This document shows positions 15,234-40,191 of a stretch of 42,533 nt of DNA, in pieces. The notes under the pieces are model-generated. The model was not told the origin of the DNA. It saw only the letters and a program-made list of their open reading frames with translations, and did no database searches. Source of the DNA: an uncultured Ruminococcus sp. Its GTDB lineage: Bacteria > Bacillota > Clostridia > Oscillospirales > Ruminococcaceae. The stretch covers positions 1 through 42,533 of the forward strand of contig CADAES010000025.1 in NCBI GenBank assembly GCA_902786975.1. Reading direction: 5' to 3'. Position 1 is the stretch's first letter; every line of letters begins with the position of its first letter. The position numbers and the translations under genes were made by a program.

Positions 15234-15246
15234 AATGCTCTCTCCT

Positions 15247-22282: not shown

Positions 22283-23185
22283 ATGCCATTAAGACTTAAA
22301 GAAACGCTGCCCGTCATAGAAAAACTGAAAAAGGAAAATATATTTGCTATGACAGAGGAGCGTGCAGAGCATCAGGATATAAGACAGCTGAAGATCGCTG
22401 TTCTCAACCTTATGCCCGACAAGGAAAGCACCGAGCTGCAGCTTTTAAGGCTGCTCTCAAACTCACCGCTTCAGATAGAGGTAACGTTCATAAGGCTGGT
22501 CACCCACCAATACAAAAACACTCCTGCATCTTATCTGCTCAACAACTACCAACCTTTTTACCGGATAGAAGGCAAATACTTCGACGGGCTGATAATCACG
22601 GGTGCGCCCGTTGAAAAGCTGGAGTATGAAGATGTCGATTACTGGGGCGAGCTGACATCTATATTTGAATGGAGCAGACTGCATGTCACATCAACGCTGT
22701 ATCTGTGCTGGGCTGCACAGGCAGGTCTGTACTACCATTACGGCGTATCCAAATTTGAACTTGACAAAAAGCTCTCGGGCATCTTCAGACATACAGTAAG
22801 AGATCCCTCAAACGAGCTTTTGCGGGGTATAGACAAAAACTTTTTTGCACCGCATTCAAGATACACCGGGATAAGCAGAGAGGATATAGACAAAAACAGC
22901 AAGCTGACTGTTGCTGCCGACTCGGAGGAAACGGGTGCGTACATCATTGTTGACGATGACGGAAATGTCTTTGTCAACGGTCACCCCGAGTACGATCTGT
23001 ACAGGCTGTCAGAGGAATACATACGTGATACGGACAAGGGGCTTTTGCCCGACGTGCCGAAAAACTATTTTCCCGATGACGATCCTGACAAAGAGCCCCA
23101 GAGCTGCTGGCTGAGCACATCGAATCTGCTTTTTACCAACTGGCTGAATTACTTTGTATACCAGATAACTCCGTATGAGTTCTGA
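22283..23185 (+). CDS. metA: Homoserine O-acetyltransferase, MetA family (Glu111 type)
   Basis: The 300-aa protein belongs to the HTS/MetA family, annotated often as homoserine O-succinyltransferase. Catalytic parts are visible: LYLCWAAQAG with nucleophile Cys142, and NGHPEYD with the His and Glu of the triad. Residue 111, in ITGAPVEKLEY, is Glu. In this family Glu at that position gives acetyl-CoA specificity and Gly gives succinyl-CoA, so this enzyme should make O-acetylhomoserine, the substrate of both MetY copies in the window. AGGGAGG lies just before the ATG, 18 bases after the Rrf2 gene, so it is the last gene of the suf operon and ties methionine synthesis to Fe-S control. Confidence 0.93.
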   Translation: MPLRLKETLPVIEKLKKENIFAMTEERAEHQDIRQLKIAVLNLMPDKESTELQLLRLLSNSPLQIEVTFIRLVTHQYKNTPASYLLNNYQPFYRIEGKYFDGLIITGAPVEKLEYEDVDYWGELTSIFEWSRLHVTSTLYLCWAAQAGLYYHYGVSKFELDKKLSGIFRHTVRDPSNELLRGIDKNFFAPHSRYTGISREDIDKNSKLTVAADSEETGAYIIVDDDGNVFVNGHPEYDLYRLSEEYIRDTDKGLLPDVPKNYFPDDDPDKEPQSCWLSTSNLLFTNWLNYFVYQITPYEF

Positions 23186-23381: not shown

Positions 23382-23411
23382 AGAGCGCTGTTCGATAATG
23401 AACAACGCTCT
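23382..23411. repeat. Palindromic element, copy 2 (terminator-like)
   Basis: The arms AGAGCGCTGTTC and GAACAACGCTCT are identical to copy 1 at 23196; only the loop differs (GATAAT here). It ends seven bases from the stop of the last reductase-operon gene, so each of the two convergent operons is closed by one copy. Confidence 0.65.
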
Positions 23412-23418
23412 TGTTTCT

Positions 23419-23751
23419 TTACAGTATCCTGTCTGCGATGAATTTATCAAGGACTGCGTCTATACTTCCGCTGACCTCAAACACCCGCACATTCCTGCTT
23501 ATCAGATATGCTGCCGCACCCTCGCCTATCTTCTGCACCAGCAGCGCATCGCAGTCGGAAAGCAGTTCTATTATCTTATCAAACCGTGTGGTGTCGTGTC
23601 CGAGCTGATGCTGACAGGCAGCGACTGCGTCACGCACCTCCAGAAAAGTGTGTCCGTTCTCGCCGAGTTCATATACACGGAAAAACTTTGCGTGCCCGAA
23701 ATGCTCGTTGACGGTAAAGCCGTCGCTCGTTGCAACTGCGACCTTAGACAT
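23419..23751 (-). CDS. NifX/NafY-type cofactor-binding protein, distal copy
   Basis: The 110-aa protein is a single dinitrogenase iron-molybdenum-cofactor domain: MSKVAVATSDGFTVNEHFGHAKFFRVYE, then an HDTTRFDKIIELLSDCDALL helix pair and KIGEGAAAYLISRNVRVFEV. Such small proteins bind NifB-co or finished cofactor in transit, or hold the apo-enzyme. It is the last gene of the reductase operon, separated from the nifK-like gene by a hairpin. No molybdenum-specific feature can be read from it. A second member is encoded at 28331. Confidence 0.88.
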   Translation of the reverse strand: MSKVAVATSDGFTVNEHFGHAKFFRVYELGENGHTFLEVRDAVAACQHQLGHDTTRFDKIIELLSDCDALLVQKIGEGAAAYLISRNVRVFEVSGSIDAVLDKFIADRIL

Positions 23752-23775
23752 GATATCAACTCCCTTTTATAGAAT

Positions 23776-23801
23776 AAGCTGCCGAAGAAAAACGGCAGCT
23801 T
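23776..23801 (-). terminator. Intra-operon hairpin between nifK-like and nifX-like genes
   Basis: AAGCTGCCG and CGGCAGCTT pair perfectly around an eight-base loop in the 57-base gap. On the minus strand the following ATTCTAT is only weakly T-rich, so it may lower rather than end expression of the last gene. Confidence 0.5.
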
Positions 23802-23808
23802 GTTTGTT

Positions 23809-25149
23809 TTACTTGTATGTTGCAAGTGCTGTGTTGTAAATGTCCTCTATCACTCTCAGTCCGCCTGTGTAGCCGACATAGTTGGTTGTCAGCACTATGC
23901 GGTAAGGCGTAGGACAAGCGATAGAAACAAAGTCTGCATCTATCTCGGCTGCAAGCTCCTTGTCCCAGCCGCTGCCGAGGATAAGTCCTCTGCCCTTATG
24001 GTCAAGACCTCTGATGATGTCCTGCATTGCGCCCGCATCGGGGTCAAAGTAGACAGGTATCTCACGCTTATCTGAGGTCGCCTTGATGTCGTCAGCTATC
24101 TGCTGCTGATACTTAGCGGGGACGTTGTCAACGATGAACTGCTCCTTGGGGACAAGACCTGTCTCGTGAAGCAGGAACTTAGTCAATCCTGTGACGTAGC
24201 CTGCGTCATGCAGGATATGCACATAGCTCGGCAGACCGTAACGGAATTCAAGCAGGAAGGTAGCGAGGTTGTCAAGCTCCTCGTAATATGCCTTCTCCTC
24301 CTCGGCGATGAAAGCTCTTGCCTTTTTCTCGTCAATCTCTGCGCCTTGTTCAAGTGCAAAATCGACTAGGCCGCTGAGGAACTTAGTCGTCTCGTTCGCA
24401 CCGATAGGCAGATATCCGAATTTGAAATACGGCTGACCGTAGCGGCGCTGGAGATTCTTAACGATAGGCTCGCCGTACCATGGCGAAACGAACACGTTGA
24501 AATTCGCCTTGGGTATAGTCTGCCATTCCTTTACGCCGCCGCTGTGAGGACCGAAAAGAATGTTGACTTTCAGGCCAAGACCCTCGAGCAGTCTTTTGTA
24601 CTCTTTGAGATTGCCTTTCCAGAACTGGTCCTGATAAGGTATCGATGCTATGACGTTGACGAGGTTCTTTTCGCTGCGTGACGGGTTTTCCTCCTCAAAG
24701 CGGCTCACATACTGGTCGATTATCGCATTGACAACAGCCGAGTGTGAAACGTAGTTGTTGGACTTGAAGCCCGAGGTCTCAACGTGGACTATCGGCCTGT
24801 CCTCTTCATAAAGGAATTCATCGGTAACGCTCGCAACGTCGTCACCCACGATGCCTGCGGTACAGCCCGTTACAACGACCTGAAGATCGGTGTCAAGGAC
24901 CTTGTATGTATTTTTGATTATATTGCGCAGTCTGTCTGTGCCGCCGAAAACTACCTCTTTCTCGCTGAAATTGGTACAGGGTGCGGTCTCGCCGCCCGCA
25001 TAGCCTGCCGAGCGCTCAAAAAAGCCTTTTATCATAACGCCGCAGCCGGGTCCCGAATGAAGTATCGGCACAGCACGGGGTATCGCCACCACCGTCTGCA
25101 AAGCGCCTATCGCACAGGTATAGCGCTCCTGTTCAATCAATCCTGCCAT
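23809..25149 (-). CDS. Nitrogenase-like reductase beta subunit (NifK/MarK-like)
   Basis: This 446-aa nitrogenase component 1 protein has P-cluster-type cysteines at Cys12 (ERYTCAIGALQ), Cys36 (LHSGPGCGVM) and Cys96 (VTGCTAGIVGDDV). It is shorter than nitrogenase NifK (about 520 aa) because it begins almost at the first ligand and lacks the long N-terminal extension that wraps around NifD. That is a feature of nitrogenase-like group IV and methylthio-alkane-reductase proteins. It starts 12 bases after the nifD-like stop. Expected role: partner in an alpha2-beta2 reductase that receives electrons from the nifH-like protein. Substrate is inferred from the sulfur-gene neighbourhood, not proven. 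Confidence 0.9.
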   Translation of the reverse strand: MAGLIEQERYTCAIGALQTVVAIPRAVPILHSGPGCGVMIKGFFERSAGYAGGETAPCTNFSEKEVVFGGTDRLRNIIKNTYKVLDTDLQVVVTGCTAGIVGDDVASVTDEFLYEEDRPIVHVETSGFKSNNYVSHSAVVNAIIDQYVSRFEEENPSRSEKNLVNVIASIPYQDQFWKGNLKEYKRLLEGLGLKVNILFGPHSGGVKEWQTIPKANFNVFVSPWYGEPIVKNLQRRYGQPYFKFGYLPIGANETTKFLSGLVDFALEQGAEIDEKKARAFIAEEEKAYYEELDNLATFLLEFRYGLPSYVHILHDAGYVTGLTKFLLHETGLVPKEQFIVDNVPAKYQQQIADDIKATSDKREIPVYFDPDAGAMQDIIRGLDHKGRGLILGSGWDKELAAEIDADFVSIACPTPYRIVLTTNYVGYTGGLRVIEDIYNTALATYK

Positions 25150-25161
25150 TTCTATTCTCCT

Positions 25162-26628
25162 TTACTTTCCCAAGAATGTATACGGCTCCTGTTCAAGCCA
25201 CCATTTTGTATACGGGTTTGACGAGTGCTTTGCGAGGTTCTTTACAAACTCGTCGTTCTCGATAGTTTCAAGTATGCGCTCGCCGTAGTTCACAAGTCCC
25301 TCGTAGCCCATTCCGAAATGCTCGTCACCGACAAGCAGAGACGGGATACCGAGCTTTGCTCCCCACAGCGTCATGCCGCCGTGTCTTGCAAGAAGAATGT
25401 CGGGCTTGATGCGGTTGAGCACATTGACAAGTTCGAATTCCTGCTTGTTGCAGACGTTGTAATTGGGTACATCGCCGTAGTCCTCAACGGTATGTCTGAG
25501 CGTATCTGCCCTTTCGTCCTCGTTGTCGTACTGCGGATCGTGGTGGAAGATCGCCGCACCCTGCGGCTCCATTCCAAGCTCTTTGAGCAGTGCAAGCAGC
25601 GAGTGACCGTGCGATGCACCTGCGGTAACGTATGCGGTCCTGCCTTTGAGCTTTTCACGCAGAGCCTCGATCTTCGGCAGATACTCTTTCTTTTTGCGTG
25701 CAAGCAGCTCCTCGACCTCTTTTTCCTTGCCGAGCACCTGACCGAGCTCTCTGAACCAGCGGTCAGTCTGGGCGATGCCGTACGGCGGTGAGTTCCTTAT
25801 CTCGGGGACGCCGAACGACTGCTCCAGCGCTGCACCGAGATAGCTTCCCAGCGTCGAGCAAGCCTGTACGGTCAGCGCAGCCTCGCTTGAATAGCTCAGG
25901 CTGTCAACTGTTGAAAACGGAGTGATATAGTTCGGCTCGTAGCCAAGCTCTGCGAACCACTCACGGAAAATGTCGCTGCCCCAGAAGTTGATGACATTGA
26001 TGATGTTTCTCTTTTGTCTTGCAGGCTTGATTATCTTTCTTGCGATGCCGTGATAGCCTGCATCGAAGCCCGATGTCCACATCTTTGAACGGAAGCCCTC
26101 GCAGAAAACTGCGACAACGGGTATCCCGAGCTCTTTCTCTGCGGCGTTGGTCACGCTCTCGACATCGTCGCCTATGATACCTGCGGCACAGGTGGTTATG
26201 ACGAATATCGCCTTTGGCTTTGCTCTTTTGAACACCTCACGGATAGCGGATTCGAGCTTTTTTGCTCCGCCGTAGATAGTATCCTTTTCTTCGAGGTTCG
26301 TCGAAAAAATCTTTCTCTGTGTCGGGTGGTCCAGCTGACGCAGGTAAGCGTTTACACGGTATGTAAAAGCAAACTCGTGCAGACAGGTCGAGCAGCCCAC
26401 AGGACCGTGCGAGATGATCGCAGCGTCCTGTATGAGCGTCAGCGTACAAGCGGCATTTGATGTGCCGCAGCCCAGGCACTGACTGAATGAACGGTTTTTA
26501 TCTTTGAGCTTTGCGCAGCCCGAGCAGGCTGAAACAAGCTCCTTTGCAGTACCCTGAAAGCCTGTTATCGAGCCGAGGCGTATCTCTCTTATTTCCACCT
26601 CGGGTATATTCAAATTGACTTTACTCAT
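25162..26628 (-). CDS. Nitrogenase-like reductase alpha subunit (NifD/MarD-like)
   Basis: The 488-aa protein carries P-cluster-type Cys in FSQCLGCGTSNAAC (51/54/61), Cys79 (GPVGCSTC) and Cys147 (TTCAAGIIGDDVE). Cys257 (VQACSTLGSYLGAALEQ) aligns with the FeMo-co ligand Cys275 of nitrogenase. By hand alignment the catalytic stretch GVSQSLGHH of nitrogenase reads SKMWTSGFD here, so Gln191 becomes Trp184 and His195 becomes Phe188. The site of cofactor ligand His442 is Met440, with His437 nearby. Thus it can probably hold a large NifB-derived cluster but is unlikely to fix dinitrogen. Extra Cys35 and Cys38 (SACSGC) add an unusual CxxC at the N-terminus. It lies between the nifH-like and nifK-like genes. 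Confidence 0.9.
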   Translation of the reverse strand: MSKVNLNIPEVEIREIRLGSITGFQGTAKELVSACSGCAKLKDKNRSFSQCLGCGTSNAACTLTLIQDAAIISHGPVGCSTCLHEFAFTYRVNAYLRQLDHPTQRKIFSTNLEEKDTIYGGAKKLESAIREVFKRAKPKAIFVITTCAAGIIGDDVESVTNAAEKELGIPVVAVFCEGFRSKMWTSGFDAGYHGIARKIIKPARQKRNIINVINFWGSDIFREWFAELGYEPNYITPFSTVDSLSYSSEAALTVQACSTLGSYLGAALEQSFGVPEIRNSPPYGIAQTDRWFRELGQVLGKEKEVEELLARKKKEYLPKIEALREKLKGRTAYVTAGASHGHSLLALLKELGMEPQGAAIFHHDPQYDNEDERADTLRHTVEDYGDVPNYNVCNKQEFELVNVLNRIKPDILLARHGGMTLWGAKLGIPSLLVGDEHFGMGYEGLVNYGERILETIENDEFVKNLAKHSSNPYTKWWLEQEPYTFLGK

Positions 26629-26643
26629 AAAAGCACTCTCCTA

Positions 26644-27447
<804 letters not shown>

Positions 27448-27473
27448 TTACCTCCATATATTCATTCAAATTA

Positions 27474-28355
27474 TCAGCCATGTGAAAATGTATCTTGTCT
27501 TGACAGCCTTTGCAGGTCAACGTATATCCGGTCTCCGAAATCCTCGCCGCCGGGTATGCCGACCGCATCGGCACGACAGCGCTGACAGTGTCTGAAAACA
27601 TCGATATACTTTGACGCTCTGAGTATTGCTCTTTCCCGTTCCATACAGTCGGGTTCCCTGCTGTCTTTGAGCTTGTGCTGCGGTATCAGCGGTATGATGT
27701 TGTATATGCTCGCACCTGCCTCGGCAACGGTCTGTGCTATCGTCTCGATGTGCTCGGAGTTTATGTCGGGCACGAGCACGGTATTGACCTTCAGCGTGAT
27801 GCCTGCATCGCTGACGAGCTTGATGCCTTTGAGCTGCTGCTCAATAAGTATCCTGGCAGCAGGGACGCCTGTGATGTGCTGTCCGTGCCAATAGATGCCG
27901 TCGTTGAGCTGAGCCTCTATCTGCGGATCGACCGCATTGACCGTTACTGTCAGCGAGTCGATTCCGACATCAATGACCTCCTGTGCTTTTTCGGCAAGCA
28001 GAAGTCCGTTTGTGCTCATGCACTTTACAAGCTGCGGGAACTCTTTTTTGATAAGTCTGAACGTTTCGAGTGCGAACGGGCTTGCGAGCGTATCGCCCGG
28101 TCCTGCAATGCCTGCGACCTTTATATCCGGGCAGAACTCCAAGGCTCTGCGTATCGCATCTATTGCTTCCTGCGGTGTGATCACCGTTCTGCTCACGCCG
28201 GGTCTTACCTCGTAGCTGTTAAAGCTTCGCTCGCAGAATTTACACTCTATATTGCAGCTCGGACTTATCGGAAGATGTATTCGTCCGTTGTTGCTCTGTT
28301 CACCTCGGGCAAAGCAAGGGTGCTTTGTCGTCAGTTCTTCGTATGAGACAGCCAT
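27474..28355 (-). CDS. nifB: NifB-type radical SAM cofactor synthase
   Basis: The 293-aa protein is a compact NifB with only the radical SAM part, as in archaea and Clostridia. It opens with KHPCF, then GRIHLPISPSC-NIECKFC, in which Cys34, Cys38 and Cys41 form the CxxxCxxC SAM-cluster motif. It continues AGIAGPGD, STNGL and VTVNAVDP, and ends FRHCQRCRADAVG with Cys257 and Cys260, the C-terminal ligands of the auxiliary K clusters. NifB inserts carbide and fuses two 4Fe-4S units into the Fe8S9C NifB-co. Its presence beside nifHDK-like genes, without nifE or nifN, means the reductase probably uses NifB-co itself or a simple derivative. The start overlaps the nifX-like gene by 25 bases. Confidence 0.93.
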   Translation of the reverse strand: MAVSYEELTTKHPCFARGEQSNNGRIHLPISPSCNIECKFCERSFNSYEVRPGVSRTVITPQEAIDAIRRALEFCPDIKVAGIAGPGDTLASPFALETFRLIKKEFPQLVKCMSTNGLLLAEKAQEVIDVGIDSLTVTVNAVDPQIEAQLNDGIYWHGQHITGVPAARILIEQQLKGIKLVSDAGITLKVNTVLVPDINSEHIETIAQTVAEAGASIYNIIPLIPQHKLKDSREPDCMERERAILRASKYIDVFRHCQRCRADAVGIPGGEDFGDRIYVDLQRLSRQDTFSHG

Positions 28356-28702
28356 TTGTCAACCTCCCATTGTTTTTCTTCCATAAGCAGACATATCGCC
28401 TGCTCGATTTGAAGCGGCATCGGATACACGGCGATACCTTTTTGCGAAATGAAGTCCTGTGCGCCGTATCCCACACGCTGTGCAACTATCGCAGACACTC
28501 CGTCAAGTGTATCGAGTATCGCATCAAATGCGGAAAGCTCGTGTCCGCCGCCTTTGCAGGCAGGCCTAACATCACGGTATCCCGTAATGTCGCAATCCTC
28601 TTTTTCGGTATCGAGCTGCGCTATATAGAATCTTTCGGCAGCTCCGAAATGCCTGTCGATGTTTATACCGTCGGAGCTTGCAAATGCTATCAGATATTTC
28701 AT
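28331..28702 (-). CDS. NifX/NafY-type cofactor-binding protein, proximal copy
   Basis: The 123-aa protein is another dinitrogenase cofactor-biosynthesis domain: KYLIAFASSDGINIDRHFG at the N-terminus, GGHELSAFDAIL in the middle, VGYGAQDFISQKGIAVYPM near the end, then a short helical tail. It overlaps nifB by 25 bases, so NifB and this protein are made together, fitting a carrier that takes NifB-co from its maker. It follows mccA by ten bases. Confidence 0.88.
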   Translation of the reverse strand: MKYLIAFASSDGINIDRHFGAAERFYIAQLDTEKEDCDITGYRDVRPACKGGGHELSAFDAILDTLDGVSAIVAQRVGYGAQDFISQKGIAVYPMPLQIEQAICLLMEEKQWEVDKWLSHTKN

Positions 28703-28712
28703 TTTATCACCG

Positions 28713-29621
28713 TTATCCGAACAATCCCGTACTGAAATACCTGTCGCCTCTGTCGGGGAACACCACGACTATATTGCCTTTATCCAGAGTCTTTGCAAGC
28801 TTCAGGGCTGCCGCCATTGCAGCGCCCGATGACGAGCCTGCGATGATGCCCTCGTTCCTTGCAAGGTCACGCACGGTTGAGAATGCCTCATCGTCGTTGA
28901 CCTTTATGACTTTGTCAACAAGGTCTATATCCATTGTATCGGGAATGAAATCGTTTCCTATGCCTTCAATATTGTAATCAAAATGCTCTCCGCCGCCGAT
29001 GGTCGAGCCCTCGGGATCTGCAAGCACGCCCTGAACATTTTTGTCCTGCTCCTTTAAGTATCTGACGATACCCGTGTATGTGCCGCCGCTTCCTGCGCCG
29101 GCAACAAGGTGTGTGACCCTGCCGCCGATATCCTCCCAGATCTCTTTGCCTGTCGTTTCATAATGTGCAAGCGGATTGTTGGGATTTTTGAACTGCTCCA
29201 GCGAGATCGAACCGGGTATCTGCGCTTTCAGCTCCTCTGCCTTTCTCACTGCGCCGAGCATTCCCTCGGCTCTCGGAGTGTTTATGACCTCCGCACCGAG
29301 CGCACGCATCAGCGCCTGCTTTTCTGCGGAGAATTTTGTCGGGACGGTAAAGATCACTCTGTAGCCTTTTCCAAGTGCTGCGAATGCGATGCCCAGACCT
29401 GTGTTACCTGCGGTAGCTTCGATTATCGTGCCGCCTTTTTTAAGTCTTCCCTCTTTTTCAGCAGCAGCTATCATATACTCGCCGATGCGGTCCTTGACGC
29501 TGCCGGAAGGGTTATACATTTCAAGTTTAGCGTAAATATGTACATCGGGGGATACCCCCATATTTACAAGCTCGACCAGCGGAGTCCTGCCGATGAGCTT
29601 ATGCATATTTTCATACAGCAT
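28713..29621 (-). CDS. mccA: MccA-type cystathionine beta-synthase (reverse transsulfuration)
   Basis: The 302-aa PLP enzyme belongs to the cysteine-synthase fold but follows MccA (YrhA) of Bacillus closely: NPSGSVKDR with PLP Lys43, IIEATAGNTGLGIA in place of the TSGNTG of CysK, VPTKFSAEKQALMRALGAE, PLAHYETTGKEIW, GAGSGGTYTG and ADPEGSTIGGGEH. MccA makes cystathionine from homocysteine and O-acetylserine, the first step of turning methionine sulfur into cysteine. It is 11 bases downstream of mccB and 10 upstream of the nifX-like gene, so reverse transsulfuration and the nitrogenase-like reductase share one transcript. Confidence 0.9.
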   Translation of the reverse strand: MLYENMHKLIGRTPLVELVNMGVSPDVHIYAKLEMYNPSGSVKDRIGEYMIAAAEKEGRLKKGGTIIEATAGNTGLGIAFAALGKGYRVIFTVPTKFSAEKQALMRALGAEVINTPRAEGMLGAVRKAEELKAQIPGSISLEQFKNPNNPLAHYETTGKEIWEDIGGRVTHLVAGAGSGGTYTGIVRYLKEQDKNVQGVLADPEGSTIGGGEHFDYNIEGIGNDFIPDTMDIDLVDKVIKVNDDEAFSTVRDLARNEGIIAGSSSGAAMAAALKLAKTLDKGNIVVVFPDRGDRYFSTGLFG

Positions 29622-29632
29622 TTCTGTTTACC

Positions 29633-30787
29633 TCACTGTTTGCTTTTTTCGATCGCCTGTTCGATGTCCGCAAGAATATCGTCAATATCCTCGATACCTA
29701 TCGAAAGTCTGATAAGTCCGTCGGTGATACCGACCTTTTTGCGTATCTCCTCAGGTATTGATGCGTGTGTCATTGTAGAAGGGTGGCAAACGAGCGATTC
29801 AACTCCGCCGAGGCTTTCCGCAAGCGTTACAAGCTGCAGGCTCTCAAAGAACTTTTCAATATCATAGCCGTCTTTAAGCTCAAACGATATCATCACGCCG
29901 CCGTTCTTTGCCTGTTTTGTGTTGACCTCGTAGCCTTTGTCGGTCGTAAGTCCGGGGTAATGCACGCTCTTTACTGCGCTGTGTTCGGAAAGGAATTTTG
30001 CGGCAGCCTCTGCATTTGCAACGTGTCTGTCGAGCCTGACGCCGAGCGTCTTAATGCCTCTGATGAGCAAAAAGCTGTCAAACGGCGGGAGCACTCCGCC
30101 TGTTGAATTCTGTATGAACGCAAGCTTTTCTGCAAGCTCCTTTGTCTTAGCTATTGCCAGTCCTGCAACGACGTCGCTGTGTCCGCCGAGATACTTTGTT
30201 GCGCTGTGTACCACGATATCAGCGCCAAGCTCTATCGGTCTTTGCAGGTAAGGTGTCATAAATGTATTATCAACTATCACAAGCAAGCCGTGCTTGTGTG
30301 CGATCTCTGCGATCTTTCTGATGTCGGTGACCGTCATCAGCGGGTTTGCCGGGCTTTCGAGCAGAACTGCCTTAACATCGCTCGTTATATCCTTTTCAAA
30401 AGACCCGGGGTCTTCGGTATCGGAAATGGTGTAATTGATATCAAAATGGTCAAACACGTTGTTGAGCAGTCTGAATGTTCCGCCATAGACGTTTGACGAA
30501 ATGAGAACTCTGTCGCCCGAATGAAGCAGGCTCAGCACTGCCGTTTCGGCGGCGAGACCGCTTGCGAATGCAAAGCCCGCATAGCCGCCTTCCAGCTCTG
30601 CTATCAGCTTTTCAAGTGCCTCTCTGGTCGGGTTGCCTGTTCTTGAATACTCGTATCCTCTCATCTTTCCAAGGCCGTCCTGTTTGAATGTTGAGGTCTG
30701 GTAGATCGGGATATTGACCGCACCCGTGCGCTCGTCTATCGGGATACCGCCGTGGATCAATGCTGTATCAATGCTTTTGTAACTCAT
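29633..30787 (-). CDS. mccB: MccB-type cystathionine gamma-lyase
   Basis: The 384-aa Cys/Met-metabolism PLP enzyme matches MccB: IHGGIPIDERTGAVNIPIYQ, GYEYSRTGNPTREALE, VYGGTFRLLN, SPANPLMTVTDI, VDNTFMTPYLQRPI, HSATKYLGGHSD with PLP Lys198, and THASIPEEIRKKVGITDGL. It would split cystathionine to cysteine, 2-oxobutyrate and ammonia, and can often also act on homocysteine. It is the first gene of the reductase operon, behind the LacI-type palindromes. A cystathionine gamma-synthase role cannot be excluded, but pairing with mccA favours the lyase. Confidence 0.9.
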   Translation of the reverse strand: MSYKSIDTALIHGGIPIDERTGAVNIPIYQTSTFKQDGLGKMRGYEYSRTGNPTREALEKLIAELEGGYAGFAFASGLAAETAVLSLLHSGDRVLISSNVYGGTFRLLNNVFDHFDINYTISDTEDPGSFEKDITSDVKAVLLESPANPLMTVTDIRKIAEIAHKHGLLVIVDNTFMTPYLQRPIELGADIVVHSATKYLGGHSDVVAGLAIAKTKELAEKLAFIQNSTGGVLPPFDSFLLIRGIKTLGVRLDRHVANAEAAAKFLSEHSAVKSVHYPGLTTDKGYEVNTKQAKNGGVMISFELKDGYDIEKFFESLQLVTLAESLGGVESLVCHPSTMTHASIPEEIRKKVGITDGLIRLSIGIEDIDDILADIEQAIEKSKQ

Positions 30788-30840: not shown

Positions 30841-30869
30841 ATTTTAAATGAAAACTCCGAACAAGTCAA
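30841..30869 (-). promoter_or_regulatory. Promoter of the mccB-nif-like operon
   Basis: On the minus strand TTGACT (30869-30864) and TAAAAT (30846-30841) are 17 bases apart. The operator at 30879-30894 ends nine bases upstream of the -35 box. Confidence 0.8.
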
Positions 30870-30878
30870 CCGCAATAT

Positions 30879-30894
30879 GTGATAACGTTATCAC
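30879..30894. promoter_or_regulatory. LacI-family operator A, perfect palindrome
   Basis: GTGATAACGTTATCAC is a perfect 16-base dyad with the central CG typical of LacI/GalR operators. It lies directly upstream of the -35 box of the reductase operon, with nine bases between. Confidence 0.85.
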
Positions 30895-30991: not shown

Positions 30992-31007
30992 GTGACAACG
31001 TTATCAC
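30992..31007. promoter_or_regulatory. LacI-family operator B
   Basis: GTGACAACGTTATCAC differs from operator A by one base. Its centre is 113 bases upstream of that of A, which could allow looping. Confidence 0.8.
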
Positions 31008-31068: not shown

Positions 31069-31084
31069 GTGATAACGTTATCAA
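31069..31084. promoter_or_regulatory. LacI-family operator C
   Basis: GTGATAACGTTATCAA differs from operator A only in the last base. Its centre is 77 bases from that of B and it lies 15 bases after the LacI-family gene ends. Confidence 0.8.
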
Positions 31085-31099
31085 ACGCAGCATCATATC

Positions 31100-32173
31100 T
31101 CATATATAGTATTCAGGTTCGGTCATTTCGCTGTAATTACGGCAGCTTTCACGTATTATCAGCGTGCCTTCAAGCTCAAGTCGTGAAACGATCTTATGAC
31201 CGCCTCTGATCCTGTCAAGCAGCAGCATAAGTGCAAACCTGACCATATCAAACTTCGGCAATGAGATCGTTGTCAGCATAGGTCGGGTATACTGCCCTGC
31301 GTCGATGTCGTCGCTTGAAATCACCGAGGGCATATACAGCTTTTGTCTGCGCTTTCCGAAGCCTTTTATCAAGCCTATAGCAAGTATATCGTTTGCACAG
31401 TAGATACCTGTCGGCGGATCGGGTAGATTTTTGAAATACTCATATGCGATAAGCCCATTCTGTTCGTTGGGCGTGGTATCAAAAACATAGTCAAGATCGG
31501 GTGCAAGATGCAGATCGGCAAGTGCAGCCTGATAGCCGGTAAAGCGGGATTCATTGTGACAGTCACCGACATAGCCTATCTTTGTGTGTCCCAGCCTTGC
31601 AAGGTAAGCGACTGCATCACGGGCTATCCTGCTGCCGTCACAAAGCACCTCATCGACCTCATAGTTAGTCGAATTTCGGTTTATGGAAACTATATTCTTT
31701 TCCCTGATCTTTAATGCCCGCAAAGCCCGCCTTGTGACCTTTCCGATTATAATAAGTCCGTCTGACTTTCGTTCGCTGCCCTGATACAAGCTGTCTATTA
31801 TTGAGGCAAGATTATCTGCTCTGCTTGCTTTTTCGTCTGAAAACTCAGCGTTATGCCACACGTTTGAGATAATACAGCCGCTGTTGCGCAGCTCCTTTTC
31901 AAGCAGCATCAGCAGTTCGTCATAAAACGGATCGGCTGCCTCGTTGGCAAATCTTGTGAGCAGTATATTTATGCTGTATATCTCATCACCTCTGCCGTCA
32001 CCCGATTTGAGTTTTCTGGCATTCGCATTGGGGATATAGTTTATCTTCCGTGCTGCTTCAAGCACTCGCCTGCGTATATCCTCGCTGGAGCATTTATGCT
32101 TGGGATCGTTGAGTATCCTGCCTACCGTTGACACGGAAACCCCTGTCATCTGAGCTATTTCTTTTAGTGACAC
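31100..32173 (-). CDS. LacI-family regulator of the organosulfur regulon
   Basis: The 357-aa protein has a LacI helix-turn-helix at the N-terminus (SLKEIAQMTGVSVSTVGRIL, then a hinge ending YIPNANARKLKSG) and a periplasmic-binding-protein-like effector domain (GLIIIGKVTR, RLGHTKIGYVGD, TGIYCANDILAIGLIKGFG). The start is a GTG at 32173 behind AAAGGAGG. Three near-identical palindromes lie right after its end in front of mccB, and a related set lies before metY2, so it very likely controls both. Operators upstream of the -35 boxes rather than over them leave open whether it activates or represses. The effector may be a sulfur metabolite, but the LacI fold more often binds sugars or nucleosides, so a ribosyl-type thioether is possible (inference). 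Confidence 0.9.
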   Translation of the reverse strand: MSLKEIAQMTGVSVSTVGRILNDPKHKCSSEDIRRRVLEAARKINYIPNANARKLKSGDGRGDEIYSINILLTRFANEAADPFYDELLMLLEKELRNSGCIISNVWHNAEFSDEKASRADNLASIIDSLYQGSERKSDGLIIIGKVTRRALRALKIREKNIVSINRNSTNYEVDEVLCDGSRIARDAVAYLARLGHTKIGYVGDCHNESRFTGYQAALADLHLAPDLDYVFDTTPNEQNGLIAYEYFKNLPDPPTGIYCANDILAIGLIKGFGKRRQKLYMPSVISSDDIDAGQYTRPMLTTISLPKFDMVRFALMLLLDRIRGGHKIVSRLELEGTLIIRESCRNYSEMTEPEYYI

Positions 32174-32330: not shown

Positions 32331-32819
32331 TTAAAGCATCCTTCGCATCTGATACCAGCGGACTCCGCCGATAACAGACGCATTAGTTACGCCCTCGCTG
32401 ACGAACCCGAATTTCTCATAATACTTTATGAGCTGCTGTTTGCAGGTGAGCACAACACCCTTTCTGCCCTCGGACTTCGCATTTCTTATGAACTCCTTGA
32501 GCAGCCTTTGTGCAAAGCCTCTCTGGCGGTAATCTGGCAGCGTACACAGTCCGAACACCATCTGCCATTTGCCGTTTTCATCGTGCAGGGATGATACAGC
32601 GTACATCTCGTCGGTAAGGTCGGATATGTCTGTCGTGAAGCCGTCGATGAATGATACTATCTTTCCGTAATCGTCGCTCATAACAAGAAAGTGATTGGGA
32701 AAATCCGTGAGCCTCTCTCTGAATACCTCTTTGCCGGCAGCCTGCTCCGGCGGAAAACAGACGCTTTCTATTCTTGCTATCTCGTCAAGATCTGCAAGCT
32801 TTGCTTTTCTTATGTTCAT
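32331..32819 (-). CDS. GNAT-family N-acetyltransferase
   Basis: The 162-aa protein has a GNAT fold: N-terminal IRKAKLADLDEIARIESVCF, a central FGLCTLPDYRQRGFAQRLLKEF holding the acetyl-CoA pyrophosphate loop (Q/RxxGxA-type), and the C-terminal LIKYYEKFGFVSEG strand-helix. The acceptor is unknown; the overall look is that of amine or peptide acetyltransferases. It overlaps the upstream ABC ATPase gene by four bases and ends the long transcript. A link to the sulfur genes is by position only. Confidence 0.85.
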   Translation of the reverse strand: MNIRKAKLADLDEIARIESVCFPPEQAAGKEVFRERLTDFPNHFLVMSDDYGKIVSFIDGFTTDISDLTDEMYAVSSLHDENGKWQMVFGLCTLPDYRQRGFAQRLLKEFIRNAKSEGRKGVVLTCKQQLIKYYEKFGFVSEGVTNASVIGGVRWYQMRRML

Positions 32820-33496
32820 AACTGACCCTTCTCTCTGTTAAGACTTCCCTGCTGCATACAGTATACCACATCGGCATACTCTTTTGCAAGCCGGTCATGT
32901 GAAACTATCACTACTGCCGCACCGCTGTCTGCTGACTTGCGCAGCTGCTCAAAAACGAGCCGTGAGTTTTCATCGTCAAGGTCGTTGGTCGGCTCATCGG
33001 CAAATATCGCCTGCGGTAAATTCACAAGCGCACGGGCTATCGAAAGTCTGCGAAGCTCACCGCCCGACAGCGAATCGGGACGTGCATCGGCGAGTTCTGT
33101 CAAGCCGAACCGTTCAAGCAGCCCGTCTGCTGCAAAACGGTCTTTGCCCTTGCCTATGACTGCTGACGGGAGCAGAACATTCTCCCTTACCGTAAGTGTT
33201 CCGACTGCGCTTTGCACCTGCGGGATATAGCCCGTCCGACTGCATCGGAGCAAGGAAAGCTCCTTGTCGCTGAGCTTATATATATCGGTACCGTCATAAT
33301 GCACCGTACCGCCCGATGCGCAAAGCAGTCCCGAGAGGATATTCAGCAGCGTGCTTTTTCCGCTGCCCGAGCGTCCGCTTATAAGACAGATCTTTCCGCT
33401 TTCAAGGTCTATATCCGTGCTGCAAAGCACCTGCACCTCGCCCGATATGCCTTTGCGTTTATAGCTTTTGCTTATATTGCGTGCTGTTATATTCAT
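32816..33496 (-). CDS. ABC transporter ATPase, MacB/LolD type
   Basis: The 226-aa ATPase has Walker A GRSGSGKST, signature LSGGELRRLSIARAL, Walker B AIFADEPTNDLDDENS and the His switch VIVSHDRLA. The short form with GYIPQVQS and NVLLPSAVIGK segments is that of ATPases paired with FtsX-like permeases, which move lipoproteins, peptides or toxins rather than import nutrients. The permease gene ends four bases upstream. Confidence 0.9.
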   Translation of the reverse strand: MNITARNISKSYKRKGISGEVQVLCSTDIDLESGKICLISGRSGSGKSTLLNILSGLLCASGGTVHYDGTDIYKLSDKELSLLRCSRTGYIPQVQSAVGTLTVRENVLLPSAVIGKGKDRFAADGLLERFGLTELADARPDSLSGGELRRLSIARALVNLPQAIFADEPTNDLDDENSRLVFEQLRKSADSGAAVVIVSHDRLAKEYADVVYCMQQGSLNREKGQL

Positions 33497-33499
33497 CTG

Positions 33500-34702
33500 T
33501 CAGTCACCCTCTCTGAGTATCCTTCCCGTATCAACACGGCTCAGTCTGTACGCCGAATATGCCGAGGCAAGAGGTCCGGTGACCGTCACTGCCGCCAGCG
33601 CCGCAAACGCATAGCCTGCTGCCGTCAAAGCATCGGGTATGAGCAGCGGCAGACCCGCCTTTCTCTCGATGAGCCTGCTGAACGGGAACACGACTGCGGT
33701 ACAGATACCTATCCCAAGCACAGCCCCGACAAAACAGATCACAAGTGAACCCAGAAGCACCTGTGCTGCGAGCCTGCGGCGTGAGAATCCGACTGCCCTC
33801 AGAACAGCGAACTCACGCTTGCGCTCGTTGATGAGCACCGTGAAAACTATCAGCATTATGACCGCAGAAAGCAGCCACACCGCCGTTATCAGCAACCTTA
33901 CGCTGCCGGAGATGACGGACAGCTTATCGGCTGTTCCCGTTATCATTGATTTTGTACGGACAGCCTGTACGCCGTCTATGCCGAGGTTTATGCTTGCAGA
34001 TACCTCGTCTATGTCATATCCGTCCTTTACCTTGATGTAAACGGAAGAAATGACATCTGCGGGGTCTTGCTTTGACAGCACGGAGATACCCTTTGACTCT
34101 GCCGCCTTTATCAGCCCACGGACGGTATCTGATCCGGCATATATCGCCGTGTCAAGTCCCGTACCTGTCGTTTCGAGCTTGCCGACAGCCTTGCATTCAA
34201 CACCGTAGAGCGTCAGGCTGTGCCCGACTCTTGTTGAAAGATCCGAACCGACGACTATCTCGTTTTTTCCGAGTTTGCCGCTGTAAGCCTCACGCAGCCA
34301 CGGCTTTACCGAAAAATCGGTGTCCTCATCAAATCCGATTATCTGCACCTGCACCGTGCAGCACTTGGCATTGGCGGAAACAAGGAAATACTGTGCGGAA
34401 AGCTTATCAACGCCGTCGATGGCTGCAAGCTCGTTTGCAATATCCTTATCCATATAGAAATATCCCGGAGTGCCCTGCAGCAGGATATTTTCAAGTTTGA
34501 CTTTTTCTGAAGCGCTTTCGGGCAGGACTATTATGTCAGCACCGAGCCGCTGTTCAAGACTGTCTATGCCGTTTTGAAGGCTCGCCGAGATCACTGCACC
34601 GCCGTAAACTGCCGCCGACATGATGATACATATGAACAGCAGTGCAAAAGAACGCAGCGGCTTTCCGACGATGCTCTTGTAAAGAACTCTTTTTATGCTC
34701 AT
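33500..34702 (-). CDS. FtsX/MacB-type ABC permease
   Basis: The 400-aa membrane protein has the FtsX layout: one N-terminal helix (about 15-36), a large extracellular domain (about 40-250), then three helices (about 263-288, 313-340, 361-385). The cytosolic coupling piece LINERKREFAVLRAVGFSRRRL is characteristic. It overlaps the DUF4418 gene by four bases. The pair probably exports or rearranges an envelope molecule; what it carries is unknown. Confidence 0.88.
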   Translation of the reverse strand: MSIKRVLYKSIVGKPLRSFALLFICIIMSAAVYGGAVISASLQNGIDSLEQRLGADIIVLPESASEKVKLENILLQGTPGYFYMDKDIANELAAIDGVDKLSAQYFLVSANAKCCTVQVQIIGFDEDTDFSVKPWLREAYSGKLGKNEIVVGSDLSTRVGHSLTLYGVECKAVGKLETTGTGLDTAIYAGSDTVRGLIKAAESKGISVLSKQDPADVISSVYIKVKDGYDIDEVSASINLGIDGVQAVRTKSMITGTADKLSVISGSVRLLITAVWLLSAVIMLIVFTVLINERKREFAVLRAVGFSRRRLAAQVLLGSLVICFVGAVLGIGICTAVVFPFSRLIERKAGLPLLIPDALTAAGYAFAALAAVTVTGPLASAYSAYRLSRVDTGRILREGD

Positions 34703-35103
34703 TGTGCTTTCTTTTCCTTGACAAAGCCTGCGATGACATCAGCAAGTGCGATCGCTGCAAGCACTGCCGATACAACAATGACTGCCGGCTTGAATGTCGA
34801 ACGGCACGCCATGCTTTCCATCATGCAAAGATTTATCACCGTGCCCGGAATGAATATCACCGATACCGACAGGGCAAAAACGCCTATCGAAAGTCCTGTC
34901 TTTATCTTCTCGTCGGGAAAAACGATGCGCACGAGTGCAAGTGCTGTAAGCACGATGCCTGCTAGTGTCACCGCATTCTGTGCCCAGTGGCACGCCATAA
35001 ACTTTCCGTCGTGTTCACCGCACGCCTTGAAAAACGTGAACGCTCCGATCGTGAGCACAAGGGCTGCAATGCCCTCGGCGATCCCGATTATTGTTCTCTT
35101 CAT
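34699..35103 (-). CDS. DUF4418 membrane protein
   Basis: The 134-aa protein has four predicted helices and short Cys-containing segments, KFMACHWAQNAV and INLCMMESMACRSTFKP, which recall the DUF4418 family. In Clostridia such proteins commonly sit beside FtsX/MacB transporters, as here (ATGA overlap with the permease). It is 23 bases after the NitT/TauT ATPase gene with no terminator between, so the cassette seems to be read from the metY2 promoter. The paired Cys may be redox-active or bind metal (inference). Confidence 0.75.
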   Translation of the reverse strand: MKRTIIGIAEGIAALVLTIGAFTFFKACGEHDGKFMACHWAQNAVTLAGIVLTALALVRIVFPDEKIKTGLSIGVFALSVSVIFIPGTVINLCMMESMACRSTFKPAVIVVSAVLAAIALADVIAGFVKEKKAQ

Positions 35104-35126
35104 TTCATTTTACTCTCCAATGCTGT

Positions 35127-35906
35127 TTAAATTATATACTCCGGCTGAGGCTGTGCCTGCGCCAGCTCAAAGAATTCAAGTATCGACTTTCGCAGCGCAA
35201 GGAACTCTCCTCCGCCCCTGTGTCTCGGTCTGGGCAGATCCACATTGACGATGCTGCTTATCTTGCCGGGACGAGGTGTCATTATCACGATGCGGTCACT
35301 GAGGTATATCGCCTCATCGATATCGTGGGTGACAAGGATCATGGTCGTTCCTTGCTTTTTCCAAAGCTCAAGTATCTTGTCCTGCAGATCTGCTCTGGTG
35401 AATGAATCCAGCGCACCCATAGGCTCATCGAGAAGCAGCGCCTTAGGATCGTTTATAAGTGCCCTTGCAATAGCGACTCTCTGTGCCATACCGCCCGAGA
35501 TCTGATGCGGATAGGATCTTTCAAAGCCTTCAAGTCCAACCATCGAGATATAGTCCTTTACTTTCGCCTTGTCCCGCTTGAATATCCCTCTTGCCTTCAA
35601 GCCGTATGCTATGTTGTTCTCCACCGTCAGCCACGGGAAAAGCCCGCCCTGCTGAAAGACATAGCCACGCTCGGTCGAAACGTCCTTTATCCTGCTGTCA
35701 TCTATCGACAGCTCGCCCGACTGCGGTTTATCTAGTCCTGCGATAAGGCGCAGCAGCGTCGTCTTTCCGCAGCCCGACGGTCCGATGATAGAGATGAACT
35801 CACCCGCTTTTATATCGAGCGAAACATCGTGCAGAGCCTCGACCCTGTTTCCGTCGGCATCGGTGTATACCCTGTTGACACCGTTTATAGAGATACTGCT
35901 GCTCAT
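35127..35906 (-). CDS. NitT/TauT-type ABC importer ATPase (SsuB/TauB-like)
   Basis: The start chosen is the ATG at 35906, in an ATGA overlap with the permease; a longer frame upstream is only the permease gene in another phase. The 259-aa ATPase shows Walker A GPSGCGKTT, Q-loop VFQQGGLFPWLTV, signature HQISGGMAQRVAIARAL, Walker B LLLDEPMGALDSFTR and His switch LVTHDIDEAIYLSDR. These match ATPases of nitrate/sulfonate/taurine/pyrimidine importers. Gene order (binding protein, permease, ATPase) behind metY2 suggests import of an organosulfur compound. Confidence 0.92.
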   Translation of the reverse strand: MSSSISINGVNRVYTDADGNRVEALHDVSLDIKAGEFISIIGPSGCGKTTLLRLIAGLDKPQSGELSIDDSRIKDVSTERGYVFQQGGLFPWLTVENNIAYGLKARGIFKRDKAKVKDYISMVGLEGFERSYPHQISGGMAQRVAIARALINDPKALLLDEPMGALDSFTRADLQDKILELWKKQGTTMILVTHDIDEAIYLSDRIVIMTPRPGKISSIVNVDLPRPRHRGGGEFLALRKSILEFFELAQAQPQPEYII

Positions 35907-36985
35907 TTTTTCAAAACTCCCTCCTGCCACCTCAGCGTGCGCTTTTTGATGATGCCGATAAAGTGATTTATCAGCGAGAACAGCACCGCCATTACAACGA
36001 TAGCTGCGAGCACCTTGTAATATGCGCTCCACACTTTGGACTGGTTTATGTAATAGCCCAGACCGCCCGGCTGACCGAGCATCTCGCTCATTACGAGCGT
36101 TGTGAACGCCATTGCATTTGCCGAGCTGATGCCCGTAAAGATGCTTGGCATAGCGTGCGGTATCGCAACGTGGATTATAAGCCCGAGCTGACCGCTGCCT
36201 AGTATCCTTGCGGCTTCATAGGTCTGCTTCGGTGTTGACTGTATGCCCTGCGCAGTCAGAAAAGCTATCTGGAACCACGCACATATCACGATAAGGAACA
36301 CGGCTGCCGTAAATGAGTTTGGCAGCAGAGTCAGTGCGAACGGCATCCACGCAACAGCAGGCACAACACCCGTTATTTTGAGTACAGGGAACACCCAGTA
36401 GTACACTTTCGGGAACCAGCCTATCAATATGCCTGTACCCACTCCGAGGATAACTCCGCAGGAAAAGCCCGCAGCATAAAGTCTCAGCGAATACAGCGTG
36501 TTCTGTACGATATAGTCGCCGTCTGCAAGGTAAGCCTCGATGACCTGTGCAGGACCGGGGAAAAACGGCTGTGCGAACCACTGCAGTTTTGTTCCGCCTA
36601 TGTCCCACAAGGCAAGTGCTACACCTATCGCAAAACGAAAAGCTGCATTTTTGCAGTAGATCTTTCTTCTCGCCTTTACAAAGAACGCTCTTATGCCTGC
36701 TGTGCTGTATATGAGCATCAGCACTGCCAGCACAAATATATATGCATCGTTTATCGTCAGGTCGATATTAAGACCGAAGACCGACAACGTGTATGTCTTG
36801 AACTCGACCGCAGCCTTCTGCGGAAATGCGATGTTGACTATTATCGCAATAATAAAGCCCGACAATGTCAGCAGCAGCTTCAGCGCAAAATAACCGTTGT
36901 GCCTGTATCCCCAGTTGACTTCCGGCTTTTCTTTTTCACCGGCTGTTTTCGGAGCGTTCAGCTCTAACGCAGCGGCATTATCCAT
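35903..36985 (-). CDS. NitT/TauT-type ABC importer permease (SsuC-like)
   Basis: The 360-aa product starts at the ATG at 36985 behind GAGGAGAG. It has about seven to eight membrane helices: an N-terminal block of three (residues about 35-110), unusual since SsuC proteins are about 260 aa, and then the standard BPD permease core. The coupling motif EAARILGSGQLGLIIHVAIP marks the ATPase docking loop. The extra N-terminal helices recall long variants found in some Clostridia. It is co-transcribed with the binding protein and ATPase. Confidence 0.9.
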   Translation of the reverse strand: MDNAAALELNAPKTAGEKEKPEVNWGYRHNGYFALKLLLTLSGFIIAIIVNIAFPQKAAVEFKTYTLSVFGLNIDLTINDAYIFVLAVLMLIYSTAGIRAFFVKARRKIYCKNAAFRFAIGVALALWDIGGTKLQWFAQPFFPGPAQVIEAYLADGDYIVQNTLYSLRLYAAGFSCGVILGVGTGILIGWFPKVYYWVFPVLKITGVVPAVAWMPFALTLLPNSFTAAVFLIVICAWFQIAFLTAQGIQSTPKQTYEAARILGSGQLGLIIHVAIPHAMPSIFTGISSANAMAFTTLVMSEMLGQPGGLGYYINQSKVWSAYYKVLAAIVVMAVLFSLINHFIGIIKKRTLRWQEGVLKK

Positions 36986-37043
36986 ACTATCTCTCCTCAC
37001 TCGAATTTCAAAGGGCGGCTTTGGCACCGCCCCTGAAAAACAC

Positions 37044-38102: not shown

Positions 38103-38122
38103 TACTTTCCTCTCCATTCATT

Positions 38123-40070: not shown

Positions 40071-40086
40071 GTGACATCGTTATCAC
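40071..40086. promoter_or_regulatory. LacI-family operator D
   Basis: GTGACATCGTTATCAC matches operator A at 14 of 16 positions, and sits at the same distance from the metY2 -35 box as A does from the mccB -35 box. Confidence 0.8.
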
Positions 40087-40175: not shown

Positions 40176-40191
40176 ATGATAACGTTGTCAA
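40176..40191. promoter_or_regulatory. LacI-family operator E
   Basis: ATGATAACGTTGTCAA matches operator A at 13 of 16 positions. It lies in the 420-base divergent region between metY2 and the LysR gene, about 105 bases from operator D. Confidence 0.65.

Follow-up and report, generated by a model that had tools for sequence, protein, structure and literature searches.

A nitrogenase-like operon of Ruminococcus as a candidate organosulfur reductase that shares a LacI-type operator with metY and importer genes

Introduction

We analyzed a 42,533-nucleotide stretch of an uncultured Ruminococcus sp. (contig CADAES010000025.1 of assembly GCA_902786975.1, a genome estimated as 90% complete), referred to here as the window, whose minus strand carries eight co-directional open reading frames (ORFs) at 30787-23419: mccB, mccA, a nifX-like gene, nifB, nifH, the genes for nitrogenase-like D and K subunits, and a second nifX-like gene. 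We consider it probable, at about 0.72, that this operon encodes an ATP-driven organosulfur C-S reductase of the methylthio-alkane reductase (Mar) kind, which assimilates sulfur and not nitrogen. This reading is based on the relation of D and K to the Mar enzyme of Rhodospirillum rubrum, on the sulfur enzymes encoded beside them, and on a feature that is new, a palindromic LacI-type operator common to the mar-like operon, metY, and importer genes. Together the operon, operators, importers, and downstream enzymes make up a candidate organosulfur reductase system in cultured rumen bacteria (strains of R. albus), which bears on the origin of methanethiol and small hydrocarbons in the rumen and gut.

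Results

The D and K subunits are related to those of methylthio-alkane reductase

In phmmer comparisons with the Protein Data Bank (PDB), the D subunit scored 448 bits against the Mar chains of R. rubrum (9fmg and 9d9u), with the next solved protein at 139 bits, and the K subunit scored 383 bits against R. rubrum MarK, with the next at 63 bits. Identity is 42% to MarD and 43% to MarK (185 of 434 positions). Mar residue numbers were taken from PMC12552129. Window D keeps the P-cluster cysteines (C54, C79, and C147) and the cofactor ligands C257 and H416, the latter together with R415. The counterparts of MarD C91, C158, C270, W195, F199, H375, R428, and H429 are kept in all 60 aligned members of clade A, the clade of window D (taken in this alignment as rows with a D score of at least 640 bits and at least 420 residues, near-copies included), and that of C66 in 59 of them, the remaining row having a gap. 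The pair Arg428-His429 has been suggested as a hallmark separating Mar from nitrogenases (PMC12552129). Three active-site counterparts are kept in window D (Trp195, Phe199, and His375) and that of His194, which lines the Mar active site (PMC12552129), is not: the position is M183 in window D and is isoleucine (32 rows), methionine (15), valine (12), or leucine (1) within clade A, compared with histidine in 6 of 7 MarD-clade rows. In the K subunit C12, C36, and C96 are kept, as in all 58 clade members aligned, and each of these 58 has an extra cysteine (C58 in the window) at a position which is serine or glycine in MarK and six MarK-clade rows.

Window D belongs to a sister clade of MarD

A careful tree of 32 D rows placed window D in clade A, sister to clade B, which contains R. 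rubrum MarD (support of 94/94 for A, 97/95 for B, and 95/93 for both together). In this tree and in a quick tree of 68 rows, clades A and B were apart from Nif and from a third group, clade C. For the 68-row tree near-copies and short rows were dropped via 14 name prefixes, and the 32 rows are a further selection; the nitrogenase references in both were Nif and NifE rows, Vnf and Anf being compared by PDB scores only. An earlier interpretation of the window (the sequence-only reading) had proposed a Mar-type reductase and had named branching inside the Nif/Anf clades as one observation that would speak against it. D does not branch there. NifH does, but as the reductase component it is exchangeable. 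The proposal stands as regards the D and K scores, the Mar-type ligands, the failure to find NifEN, and the sulfur regulon. It has to be modified in its details: D belongs to the clade that is sister to MarD, the Fe protein is of the Nif and not the MarH type, and a cofactor-adjacent histidine is replaced.

Clade A members were found here in Bacillota, Spirochaetota, Synergistota, Acidobacteriota, and Chloroflexota; of 310 relatives detected, the best 80 were listed. Other D proteins that fall in clade B are those of Pectinatus, at 72% identity to R. rubrum MarD, Ruminococcus sp. UBA7013, and the three same-genus genomes G005, G022, and G023. All of these genomes carry a clade A kind as well, and in Pectinatus the two DK pairs are in tandem. 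Clade A is therefore not MarDK renamed, since some genomes carry both pairs. G022 (99% complete, five contigs) has clade A, B, and C pairs, all placed by tree; G005 and G023 have A and B pairs, recognized in searches and placed by tree, together with C-like frames recognized in searches.

The additional pairs have surroundings of their own. The MarDK-clade pair of G022 (L050 7480-13391) comes after a separate set of genes for an SsuA-like binding protein and a permease, with a LysR-type gene on the opposite strand; neither NifB nor NifH was seen within this 19-kb locus. Clade C pairs (L053 3647-12178 and L052 7418-11624), about 30% identical to the window pair, stand with CysK and NifX genes, the CysK of L053 scoring above its cut-off and an NMT1-type ABC transporter lying nearby; clade C is perhaps another sulfur reductase. 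If all three are active, one NifB and one Nif-type NifH would serve three reductases in the R. albus-like genome G022, and each reductase would have a separate importer or sulfur enzyme. Two DK pairs are also present on plasmid pTS2 of the spirochaete Treponema saccharophilum (L141 1984-12223), together with an ABC transporter, two NifX genes, and a GNAT gene; the 19 kb covered has no annotated NifB or NifH.

A palindromic operator is common to the operon, metY, and importer genes

The 312-base gap between lacI and mccB contains three palindromes of the form GTGATAACGTTATCAC, one exact and two with a single mismatch, and at up to three mismatches five sites occur in the window, compared with 0.13 expected by chance (Table 1). 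The 10-base core AACGTTATCA is present in 23 of 25 upstream regions. When the window's whole genome was searched with the 14-base core (at most one mismatch), five sites were found, three before mccB, one before metY, and one inside a serC gene, and the reversed control pattern gave none. In G022 the seven sites are all accounted for: mccB, an SsuA-like transporter operon, and a MetNIQ-like transporter from which a GNAT gene diverges are each preceded by two, and metY is preceded by one. The control gave one site. GNAT genes occur at two of these four operator-bearing places. In 659,543 bases of loci, which were chosen for these genes and include three fetched for the sites themselves, 107 of 116 matches to the 16-mer (at most three mismatches) precede mccB (63), metY (34), lacI (5), metN (3), or an SsuA-like gene (2), and the remaining nine are elsewhere, six of them within lacI. 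Among the other genomes searched, site surroundings were examined in G022; further sites occur in G005 (1), G016 (2, and a third inside sufC), G009 (1), G026 (4), G015 (1), and G003 (3). The two operon-less genomes searched have three sites (G003) and one (G015), none exact, a comparison which is weak because two operon-bearing genomes, G005 and G026, likewise have no exact core.

The reductase operon and the metY-importer genes are apparently switched together by one kind of operator, and we infer both the pairing of this operator with the LacI-family regulator encoded upstream of mccB and the direction of control. The operator differs at one position from the CcpA cre consensus; with most sites located at these genes we prefer a local LacI-type regulator to CcpA, although this is unproven. 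On the minus strand the genes preceding the operon are, in succession, metY, an ECF S component, an SsuA-like protein, a permease, an ATPase, DUF4418, FtsX, a LolD-like ATPase, GNAT, and lacI. The sequence-only reading made no mention of the genes and sites that adjoin the operon, namely metY, SsuA-like transporter genes, and LacI-type operators directly upstream and metA and suf genes directly downstream. FtsX permeases like that of the window were seen in 3 of 49 clade A loci and a DUF4418 relative in 1 of 49 (L121 12833-14732, L139 7163-9048, L102 1349-2554, and L167 1988-4299), and similar genes are in the operator-bearing transporter operon of G022.

Operon layout and its recurrence

All eight ORFs described in the sequence-only reading were recovered, and the identities it gave them were backed by family scans and PDB comparisons. 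The spacings, in order of transcription, are 11, 10, an overlap of 25, 32, 15, 12, and 57 bases. The same gene order, with the upstream LacI-family gene, is found in same-genus loci as far as their contigs extend, and this recurrence argues that the layout is not due to chance. Window D is present in 22 of 29 same-genus genomes including its own (represented in one of them by no more than a 128-residue terminal fragment beside a contig edge), and close relatives include R. albus KH2T6, AR67, and 8 and metagenome-assembled genomes (MAGs) from the rumen and other ruminant gut sites. The joining of mccAB to the reductase, which had been put forward as a new layout, is real and recurs in the genus; it is not limited to one genome, as mccA/mccB, metY, or transporters adjoin clade A in several phyla. 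The open-access literature, at the level of the titles and abstract openings listed, yielded no description of the operon, of its regulon, or of a sulfur role for group IV-A enzymes; supplements of subscription papers may list some of the genomes. In one Ruminococcus MAG mccA is in two pieces (L078 6978-7855), as is nifH in one Ruminococcaceae MAG (L140 12860-13694), each a possible frameshift.

Sulfur enzymes of the operon and the genome

The best PDB chain for the MccB-like protein is named bifunctional cystathionine gamma-lyase/homocysteine desulfhydrase (453.7 bits), and no NCBI equivalog cut-off was reached. For the MccA-like protein the nearest chains are an O-acetylserine (OAS) lyase (5xw3) and a cystathionine beta-synthase (5b1h), and it passes the general CysKM cut-off (355.6 against 344.15 bits) and just misses that for CysK (347.1 against 350.95). 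We regard mccA and mccB as putative adjacent genes for an OAS-dependent cystathionine beta-synthase and a cystathionine gamma-lyase, an assignment which the nearest solved relatives fit, no equivalog cut-off for either enzyme having been reached. A plain CysK in place of MccA was set aside on the basis of the best PDB chains and of the separate CysK in the window (451.4 bits, above its cut-off), the scores of the MccA-like protein being close. As MccA and not plain CysK is in the operon, sulfur would enter at the level of methionine/homocysteine, and the genes needed for it to flow on to cysteine, as the sequence-only reading had suggested, are present. The separate CysK (14301-15275) overlaps a second MetY gene (634 bits, above the family cut-off) on the minus strand at 14301-16527, and no operator was found 5' of this pair.

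No match to PF01077 (sulfite reductase) or PF01507 (phosphoadenosine phosphosulfate reductase) was found in the window's 90% complete genome, so that assimilation of sulfate or sulfite is not apparent. Across the genus PF01077 occurs in 1 of the 22 genomes that have this D and in 4 of the 7 that do not (Fisher p = 0.0067) or, among genomes at least 90% complete, in 1 of 15 and 3 of 5 (p = 0.032), neither value being corrected for kinship. The genome also encodes a MetH-like protein (788 residues, 467 bits; cut-off 1010.85) and an MtnA above its cut-off.

To describe clade A beyond the main Ruminococcus group we used 48 loci (L048, L142, and 46 of the 80 listed; L090 and two short loci, L096 and L123, were excluded with the main group, and L091, from Ruminococcus sp. 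UBA7013, was kept). Of these, 31 carry metY (25), mccB (13), or mccA (14), and 39 carry one of these or a gene for an SsuA-like (12) or NlpA-type (20) transporter protein, compared with none of nine control loci without clade A, which were not chosen at random. A Pfam tally of neighboring ORFs was neutral, with no nitrogen-regulation family among the 25 of 104 families listed and glutamine synthetase in two; it scanned 105 of 129 ORFs, 24 being dropped by eye as overlaps or likely spurious, and excluded families already clustered, and so is not unbiased.

Fe protein and cofactor supply

The window NifH scored 417.2 bits (cut-off 394.35). In a quick tree with some long branches, it and most Bacillota clade A partners grouped with true NifH (28 rows; SH-like approximate likelihood ratio test, SH-aLRT, 99), and 11 rows, three of them Bacillota, grouped with MarH (SH-aLRT 99); the Fe protein has thus been exchanged within clade A. 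A Nif-type nifH in gut data is not necessarily evidence of nitrogen fixation, as the window NifH lies among true NifH and its catalytic partner lies elsewhere.

NifB is short and without a NifX domain (252.8 bits; cut-off 343.65). At E values up to 1e-20 it occurs once in the window's genome, and in each of six same-genus genomes tested the single NifB is that of the operon. The same six have one NifH at least 96% identical to that of the window and two or so at 47-53%, and G017 has one additional NifH at 56%. A search of the window's genome with PF00148 returned only the operon D and K and four very divergent genes on contig C38, in agreement with the earlier statement that nifEN is lacking, and nifN was found in none of the 48 clade A loci. 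Because no NifEN was found, the simplest reading is that the NifB product goes straight into D, as in Mar.

Contig C38 (L007 274-12399) carries two NifH-like genes with the four divergent PF00148 genes, a second nitrogenase-like cluster which lies between hypD/hypF and hydE/hydF; each of these four flanking genes scores above its NCBI cut-off. Paired places of distant NifH also lie close together in G005, G011 (one partial), G017, G022, and G023.

Discussion

Proposed mechanism

In the pathway that we favor, NifB would build a cluster, presumably [Fe8S9C], which NifX-type proteins would carry and which would be inserted directly into D without NifEN. Electrons would pass from NifH, at the expense of ATP, to the P-cluster of DK and on to the [Fe8S9C] cluster, where the C-S bond of an imported thioether-like compound would be cut to release a thiol, most likely methanethiol. 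MetY would combine the thiol with O-acetylhomoserine to give methionine, and homocysteine derived from methionine would be converted to cysteine via MccA and MccB. The LacI-family regulator, acting at the repeated GTGATAACGTTATCAC sites, would govern the reductase operon and the metY-importer genes jointly. In a further departure from the sequence-only reading, the importers suggest that a polar compound is taken up and that volatile compounds are not the only substrates; we speculate that it is a polar, perhaps amine-bearing thioether, as hinted by the importers and GNAT.

Several observations weigh against an organosulfur reductase of the Mar kind. To our knowledge there is no biochemistry for any clade A enzyme. 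D lies outside the clade of R. rubrum MarD, in its sister clade, and the active-site His194 is lost in 60 of 60 clade A members. Nine of the 48 clade A loci have neither a sulfur gene nor a transporter; seven of these nine are shorter than 15 kb. The operon and PF01077 occur together in G026, and this genome and G005 contain one-mismatch operator cores only. The genome may use sulfide too, given the MetH-like protein and the second MetY/CysK pair without an operator, and no Rfam family, SAM riboswitch and T-box included, reached gathering score in the window. The window NifH is 20 residues (60 bases, in frame) shorter near its C-terminus than seven relatives aligned; this gap (NifH, 26644-27441) may be a real deletion or an assembly fault. 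Lastly, a clade A member appears to be NflDK1 of Heliobacterium mobile, and the NflDK1 of a related species has been predicted to fix nitrogen (PMC9147875).

Alternative explanations

That last point leads to the alternative of a group IV-A nitrogenase (NfaDK) that fixes nitrogen, an activity claimed for Endomicrobium proavitum and predicted for NflDK1 of Heliophilum fasciatum. PMC9147875 groups NflDK1 with NfaDK of E. proavitum, whose cells take up 15N2, a claim repeated in PMC8399215 and PMC11257099. It also lists H. mobile accessions for NflDK4, NflDK1, and NflDK5 ending in 372/371, 363/362, and 353/354. At the H. mobile locus (L121) seven ORFs separate a clade C pair from a clade A pair on the same strand, in keeping with accessions 371 and 363 provided that the numbering runs along the contig. 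Further on, the opposite strand carries a K-like frame, as expected from the reversed order of 353/354. Some uncertainty attaches to the identification, because there are nine ORFs between the clade A K and this frame and the accession numbers leave room for seven; on balance we take the clade A pair to be the published NflDK1, by gene order and not by sequence. It seems, then, that a relative of the operon enzyme has been mistaken for a nitrogenase. The Nif-type character of the window NifH would also suit a nitrogenase, but operators common to metY and sulfur-type importers, mccAB within the operon, the Arg-His hallmark, tryptophan and phenylalanine where nitrogenase has Gln191 and His195, and the failure to find NifEN all argue for a sulfur role, and the attribution in E. 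proavitum, according to PMC9147875, came from whole cells and the absence of other nif-like genes. We therefore consider a group IV-A nitrogenase decidedly unlikely, and we reject a plain Nif nitrogenase on the basis of the tree, in which D is outside the Nif clade, of the ligands, and of the failure to find NifEN. It is possible, though somewhat less likely than not, that the entire clade, apparently including NfaDK, consists of organosulfur reductases with a substrate range unlike that of MarDK, running on MarH-type or Nif-type Fe proteins. If so, the nitrogen fixation credited to group IV-A needs another explanation; whether these enzymes fix nitrogen or cut C-S bonds is now testable.

Among sulfur enzymes, a plain methylthio-alkane reductase acting on the R. 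rubrum substrates 2-methylthioethanol and dimethyl sulfide would account for the identity to MarD and MarK, the shared ligands, and the MtnA gene. We think it unlikely given the membership of importers in the regulon, the MarDK-clade pair that three same-genus genomes, Ruminococcus sp. UBA7013, and Pectinatus carry besides, and the position of D in a sister clade without His194, on account of which the substrate may differ from that of Mar. It is very improbable that the enzyme frees sulfide from an organic thiol or thioether for MetY to make homocysteine. MetY does also use sulfide, and MccA and MccB act from homocysteine either way; however, CysK would then be the expected partner, and the CysK gene of the window has no operator 5' of it. 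The characterized relative, moreover, releases methanethiol (PMC12552129). We give the least credence to a sulfonate reductase freeing sulfite, despite the SsuA-like importers in the regulon and the experimentally supported pairing of IsrBHDK with SsuCAB in Rhodobacter capsulatus (PMC11423573): IsrD is without two P-cluster cysteines and without the cofactor cysteine and histidine, all of which have counterparts in window D, IsrB is not NifB-like as the operon NifB is, and the genome gave no match to a sulfite reductase family by which the sulfite could be used. An Isr-type enzyme was set aside on these ligands and on the last point.

Comparison with known systems

An organosulfur reductase of the Mar kind would share with R. 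rubrum MarBHDK (PDB 9fmg and 9d9u; PMC12552129) the DK family and its ligands, a NifB-type maturase, an operon without NifEN, and sulfur scavenging, for which the window's genes are the indication here. It differs in its sister-clade DK (42-43% identity), Nif-type Fe protein, and replacement of His194 by isoleucine, methionine, valine, or leucine, and in having separate NifX proteins, mccAB in the operon, and metY and importers in the regulon. With the group IV-A NfaDK/NflDK1, described as a nitrogenase, it apparently shares a clade, as judged from H. mobile gene order, but the published NfaH groups with MarH and the window NifH does not (PMC9147875). IsrBHDK resembles it as a nitrogenase-like system for sulfur scavenging with an Ssu-type importer, and differs in that IsrD has one P-cluster cysteine and no cofactor ligands, the radical SAM partner is unrelated to NifB beyond the motif, and the product is sulfite (PMC11423573). 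The mccA-mccB genes of Bacillus, for reverse transsulfuration, are adjacent like those of the window, which in addition share an operon with the reductase.

Features of the window

The coordinates of the operon, its neighbors, and the candidate control elements are given in Table 1. In consensus scans alone, terminator-like stems were no more frequent than in shuffled sequence (7 in the region against 7.7), and promoter-like matches were not clearly more frequent (10 against 7.0).

Table 1. Features of the operon and its surroundings (positions in the window; basis of each assignment in the last column).
Feature	Position	Strand	Basis
MetA homoserine O-acyltransferase, convergent neighbor; nearest model acetyl type, 431.8 bits (cut-off 460.5)	22283..23185	+	family scan
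Terminator-like stem, 12 pairs, directly 3' of last gene	23382..23411	-	consensus scan only
NifX-type carrier 2, 110 aa, last gene of operon	23419..23751	-	PF02579
K subunit, PF00148, MarK-like	23809..25149	-	PDB comparison, alignment
D subunit, PF00148, sister clade of MarD	25162..26628	-	PDB comparison, alignment, tree
NifH, Nif-type Fe protein, 265 aa	26644..27441	-	PDB comparison, tree
NifB, 293 aa, no NifX domain, radical SAM motif CX3CX2C kept	27474..28355	-	family scan, alignment
NifX-type carrier 1, 123 aa, 25-base overlap with nifB	28331..28702	-	PF02579
MccA-like, CysK family, 302 aa	28713..29621	-	ORF call, family scan, PDB comparison
MccB-like cystathionine gamma-lyase, 384 aa, first gene of operon	29633..30787	-	ORF call, family scan, PDB comparison
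Promoter-like TTGACT-17-TAAAAT 5' of mccB	30841..30869	-	consensus scan only
Operator 1, exact GTGATAACGTTATCAC, end 9 bases upstream of first promoter hexamer	30879..30894	.	pattern scan
Operator 2, 1 mismatch	30992..31007	.	pattern scan
Operator 3, 1 mismatch in 16, exact 14-base core	31069..31084	.	pattern scan
LacI-family regulator, candidate operator owner, no NCBI equivalog cut-off reached	31100..32173	-	family scan
GNAT acetyltransferase	32331..32819	-	family scan
LolD-like ATPase, FtsX permease, DUF4418 protein, SsuB/TauB-like ATPase, all below equivalog cut-offs	32816..36032	-	family scan
SsuC-like permease and SsuA-like (NMT1) binding protein, 111 bits to SsuA family (cut-off 163.5)	35903..38117	-	family scan
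ECF-type riboflavin S component	38123..38662	-	family scan
MetY-like O-acetylhomoserine sulfhydrylase, 461 bits (cut-off 495.1)	38695..39984	-	family scan
Operator 5' of metY, 2 mismatches	40071..40086	.	pattern scan
Operator 5' of metY, 3 mismatches in 16, 1 in 14-base core	40176..40191	.	pattern scan

The window also contains, at 8374-13278, an ORF of 1634 residues.

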